The notes under the pieces: generated by a model
Told to the model about the DNA's origin: nothing
What the model saw: only the letters and a program-made list of their open reading frames with translations
Databases searched by the model: none
Assembly (NCBI GenBank): GCA_947447825.1
Contig: CANFLL010000004.1
Span: 1-64,000, forward strand
Length of the DNA stretch: 64,000 bases
Direction of reading: 5' to 3'
DNA from: Chitinophagaceae bacterium
GTDB lineage: Bacteria > Bacteroidota > Bacteroidia > Chitinophagales > Chitinophagaceae
Made by a program: the position numbers and the translations under genes
Part shown: positions 13,446-57,742 of the stretch, one piece after another
Layout of the letters: each line of letters begins with the position of its first letter
How positions within the stretch are numbered: the stretch's first letter is position 1

Positions 13446-13645
13446 TCTGTTCTCATTTGTTGGATATGCTTGGTCAAATCTTCGCCTTCTTCTTTATTTA
13501 GGATGCCCTTATACTTTTCAGATAATCTTTTGGTAGCAGGGGTCGTTGGTTCTTTTATTATCTTTATCAAACGCAGTTCTTCCAATTGTTTCAGCAAACC
13601 CCTTGCCTTAGGATTAGTTATTTGTATTTGCAGTGTGTTTACCAT
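13430..13645 (-). CDS. Antitoxin partner of the VapC-like toxin
   Basis: 71 aa, overlaps the toxin start, same strand; typical VapBC layout. Confidence 0.75.
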   Translation of the reverse strand: MVNTLQIQITNPKARGLLKQLEELRLIKIIKEPTTPATKRLSEKYKGILNKEEGEDLTKHIQQMRTEWNNI

Positions 13646-13806
13646 AAAACAAAAGTACTATTTTATGTGCATCTTATCAATTATAGATTACTTGGATAAA
13701 AATCGCTGATACTGCACGTGTACTAACTAACTTGTGGCTTCGCTACAATCAAATAGTTATAGTAAAAATGATACTGCAAAAACATTAGCAAACTATCTTA
13801 GCGAAG

Positions 13807-13873
13807 CCACAAGTGACACACTTGCGGTAGCAGCGAGTCCGTGCGGCACCCTGATTTGACTTGCGGCAGCGAG
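13807..13873. repeat. Left inverted-repeat element flanking the R-M module
   Basis: CCACAAGTGACACACTTGCGG...CACCCTGATTTGACTTGCGGCAGCG; near-reverse-complement of 15978-16030. Confidence 0.7.
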
Positions 13874-13949
13874 GGCTGTTATTTATAACTTCTTTTTTAA
13901 AGTAATATTAAAGACATAAATTTGTAACCCTTGTGTAAGGTTAAACAGG

Positions 13950-15188
13950 TTGGTTATGAGTGATTATTTAACATTGGCAGAAGCTTCAGAATTTATAGGG
14001 AAGAGTAAGGAAACCCTAAGACGTTGGGATAGAGAAGGAAAGCTAAATGCTGTCCGTGAACCAATGAGCAACTATAGGGTTTACAGAAAAGCAGAAGTAT
14101 TGTCTTTGTTTTCTGACTTTGTTACGCCGGATATATCTGAATCTATTTCAAACTTTGTTCTTCCCGATCACGGATATACTGTATTGGAGTTGTTTGCAGG
14201 TGCTGGAGGGCTAGCTGTAGGAATAGAAAAAGCAGGATTGAAATGTGTTGCACTAAATGAATTGGACAAATGGGCTTGTCAAACTCTTCGGAATAATCGA
14301 CCGAATTGGAAGGTGTTGGAGGGAGATATAAAGTCCTTCAATTTTGAAGAATACCATAATAAGGTAGATGTCGTAACTGGTGGATTTCCTTGTCAGGCAT
14401 TTAGTTATGCAGGCAAAAAGTTAGGATTGGCAGATGCGCGAGGCACCTTGTTTTATGAGTTTGCACGTGTAGTGAAAGAGGTTAACCCACCAATATGTAT
14501 TGGTGAGAATGTACGTGGGTTATTGAGTCATGAAAATGGAAAAACATTGCAGGGTATGGTTTCTATATTGGACGAGATAGGTTATAATGTTGTTCCTGTT
14601 CAGGTATTAAAAGCTATTAACTATAAAGTTCCCCAAAAACGGGAACGATTAATCTTGGTAGGAATTAGAAAAGATATTGGCTTAAAATACGAATATCCTA
14701 AGCCTTATAAAATGATTTATAACCTAAAGGATGCCCTTAAAAAAGGCGAGCTATTTGATACAGATGTTCCATTGTCCGAAGGTGTAAAGTATCCTAAGAG
14801 CAAAAAAGACGTGTTAGACTTGGTGCCACCAAAAGGATATTGGAGAGACCTTCCATTACATATTCAGAAAGAATTTATGGGGGGAAGTTTTCACCTTGGT
14901 GGAGGTAAGACAGGTATTGCTAGAAGGATTGGATGGGACGAGCCTTGCCTTACCCTAACTTGTAGTCCTGCCCAAAAACAAACAGAACGTTGCCATCCAG
15001 ATGAAACAAGACCTTTTACAGTAAGGGAATACGCCCGCATACAAACCTTTCCCGACGATTGGCAGTTTCATGGTTCAATGGCTCAACAATACAAACAAAT
15101 AGGAAATGCCGTTCCTGTAAACTTAGGAAGGGAGGTTGGTTATTCTATTATCCAGTTTTTAAATGAATACTATAAGATTAAAAAGTAA
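13950..15188 (+). CDS. DNA (cytosine-5) methyltransferase with N-terminal MerR/excisionase-like HTH
   Basis: LELFAGAGGLAVGIEKAG, GGFPCQAFSYAGKK, ENVRGL, QIGNAVPV motifs; N-term LTLAEASEFIGKSKETLRRWDREGKL. Confidence 0.94.
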   Translation: MVMSDYLTLAEASEFIGKSKETLRRWDREGKLNAVREPMSNYRVYRKAEVLSLFSDFVTPDISESISNFVLPDHGYTVLELFAGAGGLAVGIEKAGLKCVALNELDKWACQTLRNNRPNWKVLEGDIKSFNFEEYHNKVDVVTGGFPCQAFSYAGKKLGLADARGTLFYEFARVVKEVNPPICIGENVRGLLSHENGKTLQGMVSILDEIGYNVVPVQVLKAINYKVPQKRERLILVGIRKDIGLKYEYPKPYKMIYNLKDALKKGELFDTDVPLSEGVKYPKSKKDVLDLVPPKGYWRDLPLHIQKEFMGGSFHLGGGKTGIARRIGWDEPCLTLTCSPAQKQTERCHPDETRPFTVREYARIQTFPDDWQFHGSMAQQYKQIGNAVPVNLGREVGYSIIQFLNEYYKIKK

Positions 15189-15891
15189 ATAATGGTGAGG
15201 TTCTTATCTCATTAGCTAAATCACTACATCCTTTTTCAAAGAAATCTTGTGTATCAAGTTCCAAGATACTTAGATTCAGTGCTACAACAAGTTGATCATA
15301 GAACCTAATATATCCAGTTACCCTATGCCAAAAATCCCTACCTATCAGTACGGGATGGGCGGCATCTATTTTTCTGTAATGCATACTCAATTCAGATGGC
15401 TCACCATATAAAACACCTACAATAAAGTCCGAATTGCTAATGCCAGATAGTGCCCTGTTAGTTCTAGCTAGGTTAATTGTGTCGGTAAACTTTTTGATAA
15501 GTGGGTTAACATCTTCCGAGTTAATAGTATTAGGGCCAGATTTCAATTGACACCATTTCTTTCTTGAATCAACTTTGTCTATAAACTCAATATCCATCCC
15601 CTTTATCATTGAACCTTCAGCAATGCCTAAATCAATGAACATACTTTGAATTCTTGTTCCAAAAGAAGTATTGATAGACGTACCAAGAACCCTAGGATAA
15701 TACAATGCTTTTGCAATTCCTTCTGGACTAAACTTTCCATCCAATACCTTTGACAAGTATTTTACTACGATTGGATTTATGTTGTAGGACTTTAGTTTAG
15801 AATGTGTTTTAAGTGAAGAATTGATATGTTGTTCAAAGATATTTTCTTTAAAATATCCCACAATCTTCAGCGTAAGTTCTTGTTCTGTCAT
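15178..15891 (-). CDS. Type II restriction endonuclease, possibly Eco47II/PmeII-like
   Basis: 237 aa, convergent with and overlapping the 3' end of the C5-MTase; KGMDIEFIDKVDSRKKWCQLKSGPNTINSEDV compatible with a D-(E/Q)xK nuclease core. Confidence 0.7.
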   Translation of the reverse strand: MTEQELTLKIVGYFKENIFEQHINSSLKTHSKLKSYNINPIVVKYLSKVLDGKFSPEGIAKALYYPRVLGTSINTSFGTRIQSMFIDLGIAEGSMIKGMDIEFIDKVDSRKKWCQLKSGPNTINSEDVNPLIKKFTDTINLARTNRALSGISNSDFIVGVLYGEPSELSMHYRKIDAAHPVLIGRDFWHRVTGYIRFYDQLVVALNLSILELDTQDFFEKGCSDLANEIRTSPLFTF

Positions 15892-16254: not shown

Positions 16255-16577
16255 TTGGTGTTTTGCGTATAGATGTGGTGAAGAACGCCAACTTCGACAA
16301 ATGGAAACACCGAAAGCTTCATGCTTTCTGGAAGATGCAATAACTCTCTTCCATCTCCCTCAAAAAACTATTTCAAATTTAATTAGGTTTTATCGAACTT
16401 TCCTTTGAACCTTCACCAGAATTAAAAACTGACTAATTACTAAAACATAAAACGTTGCTTTATGAACACATTAGTAGCTTACAAATTTCTTCTTTGCAAC
16501 GTCCGAAATAGCTGCTATTCAACGGCAGTAATCATTACACAGCTTCAACTAGATGGTTAAAAGGCTTTTTTGCTTCC

Positions 16578-16760
16578 AAGAACAATATCATTCTTAGTAA
16601 GAACAATATCATTCTTGGCAAAAACAATATCATTCTTAGTAAGAATGATATCATTCTTAGTAAGAACAATATCATTCTTGGTAAGAACAAATTCATTCTT
16701 GATAAGAACAATATCATTCTTGGCAAGAACAATATCCTTCTTGGTAAGAACAATATTCAG
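16578..16760. repeat. 21-nt-period palindromic array 1
   Basis: 8 units plus a partial one of AAGAACAATATCATTCTTGGT; one unit has the perfect palindrome AAGAATGATATCATTCTT. Confidence 0.95.
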
Positions 16761-16826
16761 GAAGGGAAAAAGTAAATTGCAATTAACCTCTTTTACATAC
16801 TCGTTTAATCATTAAATTTAAAAAAA

Positions 16827-17495
16827 ATGTCAGACAACAAACCGCTTATACCATCAACAGATGACGGCAAACATGGTTTTTACATAGTTATTGTGCCATA
16901 CATAAATCTGGCTGCCAATCAATTGCGTTTCAATACGCCCGCAGGAATTCTTTCAGCAATGAACACCAATTATGGGCTTTGGAATCCAAATTGGTTAAAG
17001 TATAAGGATGTTTCTCAGTGCACAAAGCCAGTAATTGAATTAAAGGATAGCTTGGAAATTAAGCTTGACGGTAATATTGATGATGTTTATGGGGATATTC
17101 CCGATTCTGTTTTAACGGCCAACGACAAGGCTGTATTTTTAATTTATGCCCGTAAAGCGGCAAGTTCGGCTGTGGTTTCGCCCATAGCACCGGGTTTTGC
17201 AATGGATACTGCGGGTCATTTGTGGGCTAAGTTTCTATTTCACAACACCGCCACGCCTACTAGTAAGGGTGCGCCAACGGGCAATATTGTTTATTACGAA
17301 ACCTACATTGGTGCAGCGGGCATTGCCAATGCCGATGTGGTGTTTAGCAATGGAAACGTAACATCTTCATCAATACATACTTTTCATTTTGATGAAAGTC
17401 AGGTAGGAAAAACTTGTTACGTGCGCTGTTTTTATCAAACAAAAAAAGACGAACGTAGCCCTGCAAGCGTCATTCTTAGCTTTGTGATAATGTAG
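16827..17495 (+). CDS. Hypothetical protein with FN3/Ig-like C-terminal region
   Basis: 222 aa; helical-type N-term plus beta-rich C-term HTFHFDESQVGKTCYVRCFYQTKKDERSPASVILSFVIM. Confidence 0.75.
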   Translation: MSDNKPLIPSTDDGKHGFYIVIVPYINLAANQLRFNTPAGILSAMNTNYGLWNPNWLKYKDVSQCTKPVIELKDSLEIKLDGNIDDVYGDIPDSVLTANDKAVFLIYARKAASSAVVSPIAPGFAMDTAGHLWAKFLFHNTATPTSKGAPTGNIVYYETYIGAAGIANADVVFSNGNVTSSSIHTFHFDESQVGKTCYVRCFYQTKKDERSPASVILSFVIM

Positions 17496-30751: not shown

Positions 30752-31129
30752 TCAATAATAACCTTGTTTCATTTCTACCCAATTGATGATTGTTTCTGCT
30801 TGTTCTAAACCTGCATTACTAACTTTTACACTTAGGTTTCCATCATATCCCATTGCAAGATGCAGCGTATCATAAGCTACTCTAAAGTTTAAAAGCATCT
30901 TTCTATCCACCTTTCCCAATTCCTCCTGATACCATTCCACACTTTTTCTTCCTTTTCTCTTCAATCCAAAATAACCATCCAACGCTTCCAAAATACCAGA
31001 GTAGGCAGTGTTTCCTGCCATCTTCACATACTTTTTATCATGATAAAATCCATCTTCCTTTTGCGCTTTAGTACTCAATATTTCTTTTGCATTATCTAAA
31101 TATCGGTGCGCTTCCTCAATATGTTTCAT
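30752..31129 (-). CDS. DUF5618-like small helical protein
   Basis: MKHIEEAHRYLDNAKEILSTKAQKEDGFYHDKKYVKMAGNTAYSGILEALDGYF. Confidence 0.75.
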   Translation of the reverse strand: MKHIEEAHRYLDNAKEILSTKAQKEDGFYHDKKYVKMAGNTAYSGILEALDGYFGLKRKGRKSVEWYQEELGKVDRKMLLNFRVAYDTLHLAMGYDGNLSVKVSNAGLEQAETIINWVEMKQGYY

Positions 31130-31277: not shown

Positions 31278-31901
31278 CTAATTTGCCGCCCTTGTTATTG
31301 GTGCACTATAATTTCTTCTTGGATCTGTGCCACAAGCCGCCATTTTAAAAACATAAGGAACAAAACTTGGCAAACCATCAATTTCTAAAGAGTGAGAAGT
31401 AGTTGTTTTTGTTACCCAAACACTTGCATCCGTTGCAGGATGAGGCGTAAACAATATTTCATAAAACTTGGCCTTAGGCATTGCTTTGCAACTAGCCAAC
31501 ACCTTATTACTAGCCTGTTGCGTAACAACATTAAAACCAGTAACCACTCCAAAAGCACCAATTTTAGCTTTTGAAGCCGCTGTGTGCATTCCTGCCGACA
31601 AAATTTTTGTTTCGTCGCCACCGCTAGTCAACTGCACATACGCACACTCCACGTGAATCATACCTTCCAAAATTTTCCGTTCATCATCTTTATCAGACGT
31701 TTGCGTTGGCGTACCATTATGAGCCAATGCTAATTTTCCCTGAAATTTAATCCGCTGTGCCGTAATTACCGTTAACGCAGGCGAAGGCGTTGCGTAGGTT
31801 GCGATACTTGCCGCCATCTTCGTTTCTATACTTTCCACTTCTATCACAAACTCAGGGTCTGTGTAAGTGTCTATCGAATAATTAATTAGAACATCTGCCA
31901 T
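31278..31901 (-). CDS. Hypothetical protein, N-terminal helical region plus C-terminal FN3-like domain (paralog of 56802-57422)
   Basis: LTSGGDETKILSAGMHTAASKAKIGAFGVVTGFNVVTQQASNKVL...SFVPYVFKMAACGTDPRRNYSAPITRAAN. Confidence 0.85.
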   Translation of the reverse strand: MADVLINYSIDTYTDPEFVIEVESIETKMAASIATYATPSPALTVITAQRIKFQGKLALAHNGTPTQTSDKDDERKILEGMIHVECAYVQLTSGGDETKILSAGMHTAASKAKIGAFGVVTGFNVVTQQASNKVLASCKAMPKAKFYEILFTPHPATDASVWVTKTTTSHSLEIDGLPSFVPYVFKMAACGTDPRRNYSAPITRAAN

Positions 31902-31989
31902 TTTATGATTTTTTTAAAAGAATGAAAATAATCCGTTGAAAGTAGTCTTATTGTAACGGGTAATTAAAATTTTATTTCGTAAGAACCCT

Positions 31990-32178
31990 ATTTACTTGAT
32001 GACGAAAACCAAAAACTTCATCACTTAATCGAAAAAGTTCATCATAAAAAACATTTTCTTCATCAAATAATTATGGAACTTCATCAAAAAAACCAAAAAC
32101 TTCATCAAGTATTTGGAAAACTTCATCAAGAAAGTCAAATACTTCATCACTTTTTTCAATTACTTGATGAAGTTTTTG
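31990..32178. repeat. 21-nt-period palindromic array 2
   Basis: 9 units of 21 nt centred on ACTTCATCAAG(T); first and last units read the opposite way (TTGATGA). Confidence 0.93.
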
Positions 32179-39139: not shown

Positions 39140-40882
39140 ATGCACTCAAAACACCTCAAGCAACTCTGTCTCATTACTGTTCTACTATTAGGAAGTACGC
39201 TGTTGTCGGTGTTTTTAATTCTTTTATCCCTCGATAGAAATGAACTTATTGCGCATATCATCCGCCTAACCAATAAACCCTATTTGCTCAATCTATTATC
39301 TAATAAAATACTCACTCCGCAAAAGTTTACAATCCTAAGATACGGTTTGCAGGTCTCAATTATTCTTGATTGTATAACAATTGCCTTATTGTATCGTTTT
39401 AGAAATGGGGTATTGTCGTTACTGAATTTTATTTTTTCTACCATTAAAAATTGTTTTGGTGCTATCAGCCTTGCGCATAATACAAGAAAAGAAAATATAC
39501 TTCTACTCATCATACTGGCAATTGTATTTTTAAAAGGATTGTATTACATTCTATCATTCGATTTACAATATGATGAAATGTGGAGTTACAATTACTTCAC
39601 TTCTCGCCCCGTTTATCTTATTTTCTTTAGTTATAATAACTATCCGATTTACGAACTAAGTACGCACCTGTTTAAATGGCTGCCTTTTTCTATGAAGGTG
39701 AACCTACGATTACCCCCTTTTTTGATGGGGATATTTTGCATTTTCGTGTTATTTGGTTGCACAAAAAAGATTACGTCACACTTTCTCACCGCCCTTGCAA
39801 GCGTCGTATTATTTGCTTGCATGCCCGTTTCGGTGTTTTACATGTTGTATGCACGAGGGGTAATGTTCGAACTTTTCTTTGCCGTTACAGCATTTTTTAG
39901 TCTTGTATTTCTTGTAAAAACTCAGCAAAAGAAAAAGTATTTGTTTCTATATGTTGCCTCAAACGTGTTAGGAGCGTATTCCATGCCTACTCATTTGTAT
40001 TTCTGGGCAGTGTTTTCTTTGGTATCATTTCTTTATTTTATCCTTTATCAAAAATCAGTAATAAAGTCTATCTTACTAAGCAATTTTCTAATCCTAGCCT
40101 TAATCGTATTGTGTTATTTGCCAGTATTTTTTGGCTCTGGATTGTCGTTTGTTTTTGGTGCACTTACAGATACCTCTCAATCCACAAATCTATTTGCCAA
40201 CACAATTGCTTACACCAAAGGCATCAATAACTTCTTTACTGGCAATGTTTATGGTTTGGTAATTCTATCTTTTATGTCTTTTGTCTTTTTGTTTTTATAT
40301 AAAACAGCGGATTACAAATACCTATTTACATTGCTACTGGTTAACCTATTTATCTTTTTGCCAAGTATAATCTATCTATTTCAACGTGTATTTATCCCCG
40401 AAAGAGCTTTGGCTTTTATTGGCTTAGTAATTCCTTTTTTAGGATGCACGCTATTTTATTTTACAAAAAATTCTCTCAAACAATATCAACAGTATTGCAT
40501 TCTTGCAATTGTTTTTATTGCTGGTTGCGCCATCAGTCATCGGCATGAATACCTAAATTGGAGTGTTCAAAAAGACAAGGATGCCATTAAGCTTTCTACC
40601 CTTTTTTTAAAGAATAAAATAGAGACTTGCTATGATAATTCGCCCACTTCCGAGTTCTATTATTTCTATCCAGCTTTAGAATATTATTTTAGTCAGCAGA
40701 AAAAAACTATCAACTTTAATATGGCGGAACCTAATAGTCAGCGATATAAACCATTACTTTCCACAGATAATTTTGATTGCATTATAGATAGCATTTATGC
40801 CAATGAAGAACCAAGAAGAGTAAAGTATAAAAAGATATTTACTGATAATGCTTATGGATTTAAAGTGTGGCGGTTGAAATAA
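39140..40882 (+). CDS. Multi-pass membrane protein, GT39/ArnT-like glycosyltransferase
   Basis: LQYDEMWSYNYFTSRP motif after TM helices; KVNLRLPPFLMG. Confidence 0.75.
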   Translation: MHSKHLKQLCLITVLLLGSTLLSVFLILLSLDRNELIAHIIRLTNKPYLLNLLSNKILTPQKFTILRYGLQVSIILDCITIALLYRFRNGVLSLLNFIFSTIKNCFGAISLAHNTRKENILLLIILAIVFLKGLYYILSFDLQYDEMWSYNYFTSRPVYLIFFSYNNYPIYELSTHLFKWLPFSMKVNLRLPPFLMGIFCIFVLFGCTKKITSHFLTALASVVLFACMPVSVFYMLYARGVMFELFFAVTAFFSLVFLVKTQQKKKYLFLYVASNVLGAYSMPTHLYFWAVFSLVSFLYFILYQKSVIKSILLSNFLILALIVLCYLPVFFGSGLSFVFGALTDTSQSTNLFANTIAYTKGINNFFTGNVYGLVILSFMSFVFLFLYKTADYKYLFTLLLVNLFIFLPSIIYLFQRVFIPERALAFIGLVIPFLGCTLFYFTKNSLKQYQQYCILAIVFIAGCAISHRHEYLNWSVQKDKDAIKLSTLFLKNKIETCYDNSPTSEFYYFYPALEYYFSQQKKTINFNMAEPNSQRYKPLLSTDNFDCIIDSIYANEEPRRVKYKKIFTDNAYGFKVWRLK

Positions 40883-41132
40883 GGCTAACCAAATGCGACA
40901 AAAGCCTAAGCAAATGCCGCATAAGGTTGAACAAATATGATATAAGGTTAACCAAATGCGACAAAAGCCTAAGCAAATGCCGCATAAGGTTGAACAAATA
41001 TGATATAAGGTTAACCAAATGCGACGAAAGGCTTCCCAAATGCCGCATAAGGTTGAACAAATGCGACAAAAGTTTAGCCTAATGCCACATAATGTTAACC
41101 TAATGCCACATAAGGTTAGCCCAATACGACAC
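40881..41132. repeat. 21-nt-period array 3
   Basis: 12 exact 21-nt units (AAGGTTAACCAAATGCGACAA type); a 63-nt trimer is duplicated (40881-40943 vs 40944-41006, about 1 mismatch). Confidence 0.95.
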
Positions 41133-45979: not shown

Positions 45980-46210
45980 GAACCGGTTGAACATGTTTAA
46001 AAAAAGCTTTTTTAGCGTAATGTTCAGTTGAACGAGGTTTGCGTGAGGGCTTACGAAACTTCCGTTCAACTGAACTTATCTTCCGTGAGGGCTTACCGAG
46101 TTTCCGTTCAGCCGAACGAGGTTTCCGTAAAGGCTTACGGAACTTCCGTACGACTGAACATTTCCTCCGTAAGAGCTTACCGAACTTCCGTTCAATTGAA
46201 CTTATCTTCC
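45980..46210. repeat. 21-nt-period palindromic array 4 (9 clear units 46022-46210, 2 degenerate units before)
   Basis: Alternating GTTCA[RY]TGAAC and GTAAG[AG]CTTAC palindromes; degenerate units carry AACCGGTT and AAAAAGCTTTTT palindromes. Confidence 0.95.
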
Positions 46211-46313
46211 GAAAGGCAGTATAAACTTAAAAACTAAGTCTATATTAATGAATATGATTGATTAAAAGTTTCTCTTTTCAATCAAAAATTCATCTAGCTA
46301 AAATTGAAAGCTT

Positions 46314-56801: not shown

Positions 56802-57422
56802 TTAGTTCGCAGCTCTCGTTATTGGTGCGCAATAGTTTCTTCTTCTATCAGATCCACGAGCTGCCATTTTAAATACATAAGGAACAAAGCTTGGTAAATT
56901 TTCTATTTCTATGGAATGACTGGTAGATGTTTCAGAAATCCACACACTTGTAGCTATTGCTGGATAAGCGGTGTACAATACTTCATAGAAACCAGCTTTT
57001 GGCATAGGATTGCAACTGCACAACACTTTATTACTTGCTTCTTGTGTTACTACTTTAAAATTAGTTACTACTGCAAATACCCCAATTTTAGCTTTAGAAC
57101 CTGCTGTGTGCATTCCTGATGATAATATCTTGGTTTCATCACCACCACTTGTAAGTTGAATGTACGCACCCAATACGTGCATTTGCCCTTCTATAACAGC
57201 CCTTTTATCATTCTTATCAGAAGTGTCTGTTGGTGTTCCATCTTTAGCCTTTGCCACAGCAGTCTGAAACAATATACGCTCAGTAGTTATTGCTGCAACT
57301 GCGGGCGATGGTGTTGGAAAGCTTGAGTTGGGTGAAAGATGCGTCTCAATACTTTGCACTTCAGTTATTAATCCATCGTCAGTGTAAACGTCTCTTGAAT
57401 AATCAACCAGTACTTGTGACAT
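56802..57422 (-). CDS. Hypothetical protein with FN3-like C-term domain (paralog of 31278-31901)
   Basis: LTSGGDETKILSSGMHTAGSKAKIGVFAVVTNFKVVTQEASNKVL...SFVPYVFKMAARGSDRRRNYCAPITRAAN. Confidence 0.85.
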   Translation of the reverse strand: MSQVLVDYSRDVYTDDGLITEVQSIETHLSPNSSFPTPSPAVAAITTERILFQTAVAKAKDGTPTDTSDKNDKRAVIEGQMHVLGAYIQLTSGGDETKILSSGMHTAGSKAKIGVFAVVTNFKVVTQEASNKVLCSCNPMPKAGFYEVLYTAYPAIATSVWISETSTSHSIEIENLPSFVPYVFKMAARGSDRRRNYCAPITRAAN

Positions 57423-57532
57423 GACATTAATGATTTAATAAATGAAAAATAATCGGTTGAAAGTAGTCTTATTGTATCTAGCAATACTAGTTAGTTTACC
57501 AGAACAGGCATTTCAGACGTAAAATGGTTATA

Positions 57533-57742
57533 ATAATCACCAATATTATCAATATCTGTATCAAGATTATCATAATCGGTATACCGATGGAAACAATCTG
57601 TATAAAGATTGCCATCATCTGTATACAGATAGTCACCATATTCATACAGATGATGGCAATCGGTTGAAAGATATTGATGATATTGATACCGATTATCGCC
57701 ATCGGTATGAAGATATCCATAATCGGTAAGCCGATATTGGCT
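57533..57742. repeat. 21-nt-period palindromic array 5
   Basis: 10 units of 21 nt, 14-nt palindromic core plus 7-nt spacer; perfect cores ATCGGTATACCGAT and ATCTGTATACAGAT. Confidence 0.95.

Follow-up and report, generated by a model that had tools for sequence, protein, structure and literature searches.

The gene at 56802..57422 raises the question of what is conserved and what is free to change at a locus where each gene copy carries its own tandem array. Within the window (the whole 64-kb stretch of DNA analysed), this gene and its paralog are both preceded by a 21-nt periodic array, and the two arrays differ in sequence. Both genes lie on the minus strand. The first, a family A gene, encodes a protein of 206 aa with an N-terminal helical domain and a C-terminal FN3 domain, and the second (31278..31901, named P0002), recognised by sequence comparison, encodes 207 aa. 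The proteins align over their full length with 133/207 identical residues (64%, E=2e-101), confirming the paralogy proposed in the initial annotation. Array 5 (approximately 57541..57738, minus strand) consists of about 9 units with the dyad ATCGGTATACCGAT and its variants (dyad z=5.1), and array 2 (approximately 32005..32149, minus strand) of about 9 to 10 units with the dyad ACTTGATGAAGT/ACTTCATCAAGT (dyad z=4.2), both with period 21. They end about 103 to 118 nt from the start codons, just upstream of the genes as had been described, and their earlier reading as unrelated agrees with an alignment identity of 0.47 versus 0.45 for shuffled sequence. Between array and gene, the paralogs have near-identical proximal leaders (AATGAAAAATAATCGGTTGAAAGTAGTCTTATTGT at 57441..57475 and AATGAAAATAATCCGTTGAAAGTAGTCTTATTGT at 31921..31954, both on the minus strand). 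The leader that had been proposed as a common feature is indeed common to the pair, and it is conserved in about six subfamily members of the source genus (L001, L002, L014, L158, L159, and L161), but it is not conserved across the whole family.

A scan of the window at lags 12 to 35 gave repeated matches at lag 21 only (4), with one match each for lags 23 and 31, at one other place. Array 1 (16567..16765, plus strand), composed of AAGAACAATATCATTCTTGGT units, precedes a gene of a second family, family B (16827..17495, plus strand, 222 aa). Two further arrays, to which no strand is assigned, are orphans: array 3 (40879..41131) has GGTTAACCAAATGCGACATAA units and lies between convergent genes, and array 4 (46022..46216) alternates GTTCAACTGAAC and GTAAGGGCTTAC dyads with a period of 21/42. 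The array 5 type recurs in the same genome as an orphan array (L044).

Once the genus genomes and family B had been added, an upstream period-21 array was detected for 76 of 100 distinct family A and B genes, so that most homologs do have the array that the initial annotation expected of them. The thresholds were set by us, and some of the 24 genes below them have a sub-threshold signal. In an earlier set of 42 distinct A genes, the best upstream lag passed the threshold at 21 in 29 genes and at 22 in 3, compared with 2/42 at lag 21 in the downstream control for the same genes. The array is nearly always on the 5' side, with a median distance of 90 nt from array end to start codon. Searching from the arrays outward returned families A, B, and C as the recurrent downstream families, with proteins of about 200 to 230 aa; most of the other small clusters arose from a single gene being counted twice where its array was split. 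The same 21-nt period occurs in several genera and at least two gene families, among genomes that are drafts sampled in part (864 kb for the source genome).

Family A proteins are about 205 aa long. The FN3 fold of the C-terminal half is indicated by the Pfam fn3 domain in 15/33 members, by the AlphaFold model (pLDDT 87.8), and by its best Foldseek matches, all pointing to FN3, and the N-terminal helical domain has no match. The Pfam search found FN3-type domains only, neither a domain for DNA binding nor any other known function was found, and the PADLOC defence-system models matched 0/33 members, on which grounds we rejected a defence-system reading. Rfam, PHROGs, and PADLOC returned nothing that accounts for gene plus array. 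Carriage by phages or plasmids was ruled out, the gene family having no match in the phages, plasmids, and viral contigs searched. The distribution is patchy: family A is present in 16/120 Chitinophagaceae genomes (judged by named loci) and, phylum-wide, in 10/396 genomes, part of these being FN3-only partial matches. It extends to Bacteroidales and Prolixibacteraceae MAGs and reaches up to 15 copies per genome. The neighbours are diverse, and no operon partner or regulator gene is generally conserved beside it. The A paralog P0002 is followed directly by a DUF5618 gene (window 30752-31129), as are two B genes (L010 948-1328 and L011 2183-2623, the latter recognised by eye).

Family B was found in only five genomes, each with 6 to 15 family A copies. 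Its profile aligns to family A over the full length, and the common descent of A and B is suggestive only, since the match probability is only 50% despite E=1.6e-4. The single-sequence structure model of family B is unusable (pLDDT 30). A third gene type, family C, is also found 3' of arrays (L043 7638-8339 and L220 1671-2354), as is a possible fourth, D (L049 15465-16118), with a weak B match. Some B, C, and D genes have restriction-modification genes beside them, which were not seen at most other loci: in the window, a C5 cytosine methylase with a MerR-type HTH and an EcoO109I-like nuclease (13950-15188 and 15178-15891), and methyltransferase-like genes, judged by eye, in L043 (5720-7090) and L049 (13932-14789). 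The upstream distal flank of family B (L010, L011, L013, L124, L129, and L136) can be read as an open frame (MFxRKIPQxxxTPPPxYxW..., about 90 aa) and appears conserved in that reading.

The proposal that arrays are replaced without change of gene, period, or position is borne out at syntenic loci between species. At the array-1 locus of the sister species G048 (pair window array 1/L148), the distal flank (16361..16558 in the window, plus strand) is 80% identical and the gene 71% identical at the DNA level. The same 247 nt separate the matched blocks in both genomes, and the array between them is unrelated and of the same length class, with AAATAATTGGTACACCAAATA units instead. The array-1 type is present elsewhere in the sister-species genome. 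In the pair L005/L167, the proteins are 93% identical and the distal flanks 81% identical up to the array, after which the arrays are unrelated; L169/L183 and L010/L011 are further cases. The locus of 56802-57422 has three array types in five species (L001 and L158; L038 and L168; L161), with synteny judged by its shared neighbours, the 'TRKITQIVAG' gene and the 'MAGINAHLAVKEEEPF' gene, which we take to be mnmG. Replacement is saltatory, not gradual, as other pairs at 82 to 94% protein identity keep the array type (L001/L158, L169/L192, L002/L014, and L006/L176); array 2, for example, is retained in its G048 ortholog L014 with an array similarity of 0.96. In the subfamily of 56802-57422 both distal and proximal flanks are common, and eleven loci of one A subfamily share the distal flank, their proximal flanks not being conserved. 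The conserved flank is the distal one in the largest other subfamily and in one B group. Sharing among gene-linked arrays is confined to such flanks, within subfamilies.

The initial annotation likened the array to an address or barcode of each copy, which is unproven. In a specific form, self-complementary arrays would identify each copy, for example, by homotypic pairing between copies of one array, as DNA or as RNA, and it is true that the arrays are self-complementary, locus-specific, and rapidly replaced while the architecture is kept. We consider this improbable nonetheless: no machinery for it was identified, some types occur at more than one locus of a genome, as array 5 and the L044 orphan show, and near-identical proteins may have different arrays. 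Unrelated arrays beside proteins that are 83 to 93% identical argue against a protein being tightly matched to its array sequence, and for the same reason, sequence-specific binding of the array by the family A product itself seems unlikely.

With degenerate ends counted in, the detected arrays have a median length of about 12 periods, and about 10 units are typical. The period is 22 nt in Lacibacter (L016 and L031), with two such loci in Lacibacter cauensis, and L021 has both 21 and 22. The dyads are phase-locked in the unit, with a score of 0.57 at one phase, 0.47 at +10.5 bp, and 0.26 elsewhere, the second peak being largely implied by any symmetric repeating unit. Dyad symmetry exceeds the mirror control in 60/72 arrays (p=1e-9), and the best dyad period is 21 or 22 in 42/58 upstream regions versus 4/55 downstream. 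Dyads even outlast direct repetition: L025 has a lag-21 identity of only 0.33, yet a dyad z of 3.5, and L131 has a dyad z of 4.1. From the distal to the proximal end, unit identity to the consensus climbs and then drops symmetrically, and higher-order repeats of 42 or 63 nt occur, which together mark array growth as tandem-repeat dynamics and not growth at a leader end. In one subfamily (L005, L167, L169, and L183), the distal array boundary carries an inverted repeat, GGGAGGCATATTTGGTATGCCTCCC, and the units have a TGCGACAT-like half in common, the other half, a palindrome, being different. Another inverted repeat, of about 100 nt, lies distal to the array in L003 (669-770), with sub-threshold miRNA matches on both strands that are surely spurious as miRNA.

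With 21 nt corresponding to 7 codons, the arrays might encode heptapeptide repeats, and open frames are slightly above expectation (1.24 versus 0.87 per array). However, they have no strand preference (0.64 versus 0.60), many arrays have no open frame, and 22-nt arrays exist, making this reading highly implausible.

Double-stranded DNA accounts for the array signature better than RNA hairpins do. The central dyad positions, where a hairpin loop would fall, are complementary too (0.53), G.T pairs are not in excess on the gene-sense strand (71 G.T versus 90 A.C), the arrays lack a strand sense, and the search for RNA families was negative: Rfam covariance models gave no match at gathering score in the window and sub-threshold matches only in 18 loci, by which a structured Rfam RNA was rejected as a candidate. 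Covariation within units initially gave a pooled z of 6.8, which we discarded as the same data had served to pick the dyad centre. When centres were chosen without bias and compared with a mirror control, compensatory change was not above the control, and base-paired compensation is therefore not claimed.

These features bear on a second alternative, in which transcription of the array would yield a repeat RNA acting on the neighbouring gene's protein, as in the type III toxin-antitoxin systems ToxIN, CptIN, and TenpIN. The anatomy is the same, with tandem repeats directly 5' of one small, solitary gene of about 200 aa, and the repeat likewise differs between loci; the gene family is also fast-evolving, patchy, and multi-copy. 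Type III antitoxin repeats are, however, far longer than the 21- to 22-nt units found here, whose dyads exist at the DNA level, with paired centres and without G.U or strand bias. Orphan arrays without a gene are common, and the proteins resemble no toxin fold, toxin model, or defence family, the Pfam and Foldseek matches being to FN3. We therefore regard control by a repeat RNA as rather unlikely.

Our preferred mechanism, put forward tentatively, is a cassette consisting of a family A, B, or C gene and a cis-acting lattice of double-stranded DNA dyads bound by a protein, operator- or centromere-like. The association with the gene, the period, the dyads, the 5' side, and the wholesale replacement of the array between kept flanks and gene are direct observations. 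Each unit would be a single-gene cassette with the lattice just 5' of the gene, and the lattice would comprise about 10 dyad-symmetric sites with a two-turn phasing of 21 bp, occasionally 22. We infer that a dimeric or filament-forming protein may read it as double-stranded DNA and either control the gene, as at an operator, or mark the locus, as at a centromere; the identity of this reader and the biological role of the lattice are guesses. The lattice sequence would drift within the limits set by dyad and phase and be re-homogenised into new array types, as in satellite DNA, when 1 to 3 units slip or are exchanged unequally. The 42- and 63-nt higher-order repeats and the degenerate ends are consistent with such tandem exchange. 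Counting against the lattice are the family A proteins without a DNA-binding domain, the missing kept regulator, compensation no higher than in the mirror control, and the fact that most arrays in the source genus are orphans in random-looking intergenic contexts.

The gene with its array was further compared with known kinds of element. The regular period, the palindromic character, and a leader-like conserved flank on one side recall CRISPR, but the units are in tandem without unrelated spacers, no cas genes were seen adjacent, and what varies does so from array to array, staying constant within any one of them. Consensus identity is symmetric along the array, and CRISPR-like polarity was rejected, the two ends decaying alike without a leader-end bias. 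Iteron and operator arrays likewise have dyad or direct sites at 21 to 22 bp on the same helix face, and here too the phasing is at whole helical turns, with a period of 21 or 22 and dyads at 10.5-bp intervals. In contrast to these, the array sequence is unrelated between orthologous, syntenic loci, the diverse neighbours include no adjacent initiator or repressor gene, and hundreds of copies are estimated in one genome. Eukaryotic centromeric satellites, as an analogy only, have a constant period, fast sequence turnover, dyads, and higher-order repeats as well, but the present arrays are bacterial, about 200 bp long, and tied to a gene family. A description of gene-linked 21-bp palindrome arrays was not found in the open-access literature, and the gene with its fast-changing palindrome array seems to belong to a hitherto undescribed type of gene-linked element in bacterial DNA, new in the sense that it matched no known kind on the features that define membership, and still compatible with RNA-based or neutral explanations. 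We think it quite conceivable, if somewhat short of probable, that helical-plus-FN3 gene and satellite-like array form an undescribed bacterial element class, in which only dyad symmetry, two-turn period, length, and position are selected and the sequence, replaced time and again, is private to each locus and species. If so, bacteria would have a constant architecture with free sequence, serving locus identity or conflict. Conservation of period, symmetry, and position without sequence is rare in bacteria, and searches that rely on alignment miss it. Should such an element have a function, this implies either that the geometry of its DNA is read or that a partner co-evolves rapidly with it, and the question posed by eukaryotic satellites, in which architecture persists and sequence turns over, would become testable by bacterial genetics.

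The main rival is a non-functional satellite, in which short dyads were amplified by slippage, spread with a mobile element, and came to lie beside genes by chance. Here the array-gene pairing of the initial annotation has to be qualified: most genes have an array, but many arrays, including arrays 3 and 4, have no gene. The source genome has 52 arrays in 864 kb (about 6 per 100 kb), 7 of them with a detected family gene, and the sister species has 27 in 380 kb, 5 of them with such a gene. Orphan arrays, abundant in the source genus, occupy intergenic contexts in ordinary proportions, and no gene remnants were found at those in the first 464 kb, the one exception being a weak relative of family B that has an array to itself. 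This abundance and the symmetric degeneration of the array ends favour a satellite. Against it, eight other genomes carrying family A have 0 arrays in 320 kb of sampled background DNA, and about 7/13 of their family-gene upstream regions pass a similar cut. The nearly constant 5' side, the period shared by several genera and at least two families, and the persistence of dyads where direct repetition is nearly lost (L025, L131) also speak against it, and we judge the satellite unlikely, though the strongest of the alternatives to the protein-bound lattice.

Spread with a mobile element has one concrete counterpart. A dispersed, MITE-like element of 700 to 725 bp (L048 15918-16621, L052 11738-12443, and, on the reverse strand, L054 approximately 13586-14308), with copies 83 to 87% identical, contains an orphan GACTCACCTGAGTC array and has possible terminal inverted repeats (AATTCTACTTTGACA ... 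TGTCAAAGTAGAATT). Shared flanks and termini of dispersed copies, as in REP/MITE palindromes, were seen for this one orphan class, in three copies; the arrays otherwise differ from such palindromes in that they are tandem and phase-locked, comprise about 10 units, mostly occur singly at a locus, and are unrelated in sequence.

In the 464-kb sample, lag 21 gave 29 stretches, lag 28 three, and lags 15, 18, and 22 one each, with none at the remaining lags; part of the lag-21 stretches belong to a separate period-7 repeat, which inflates this tally and was left out of later array counts. This degenerate, intergenic period 7/14 repeat is CTTTCAACTTTCGACTTATGA-like and occurs in L004 (685-877 and 1600-1885), L013 (2400-2574), and L061 (14610-14945).
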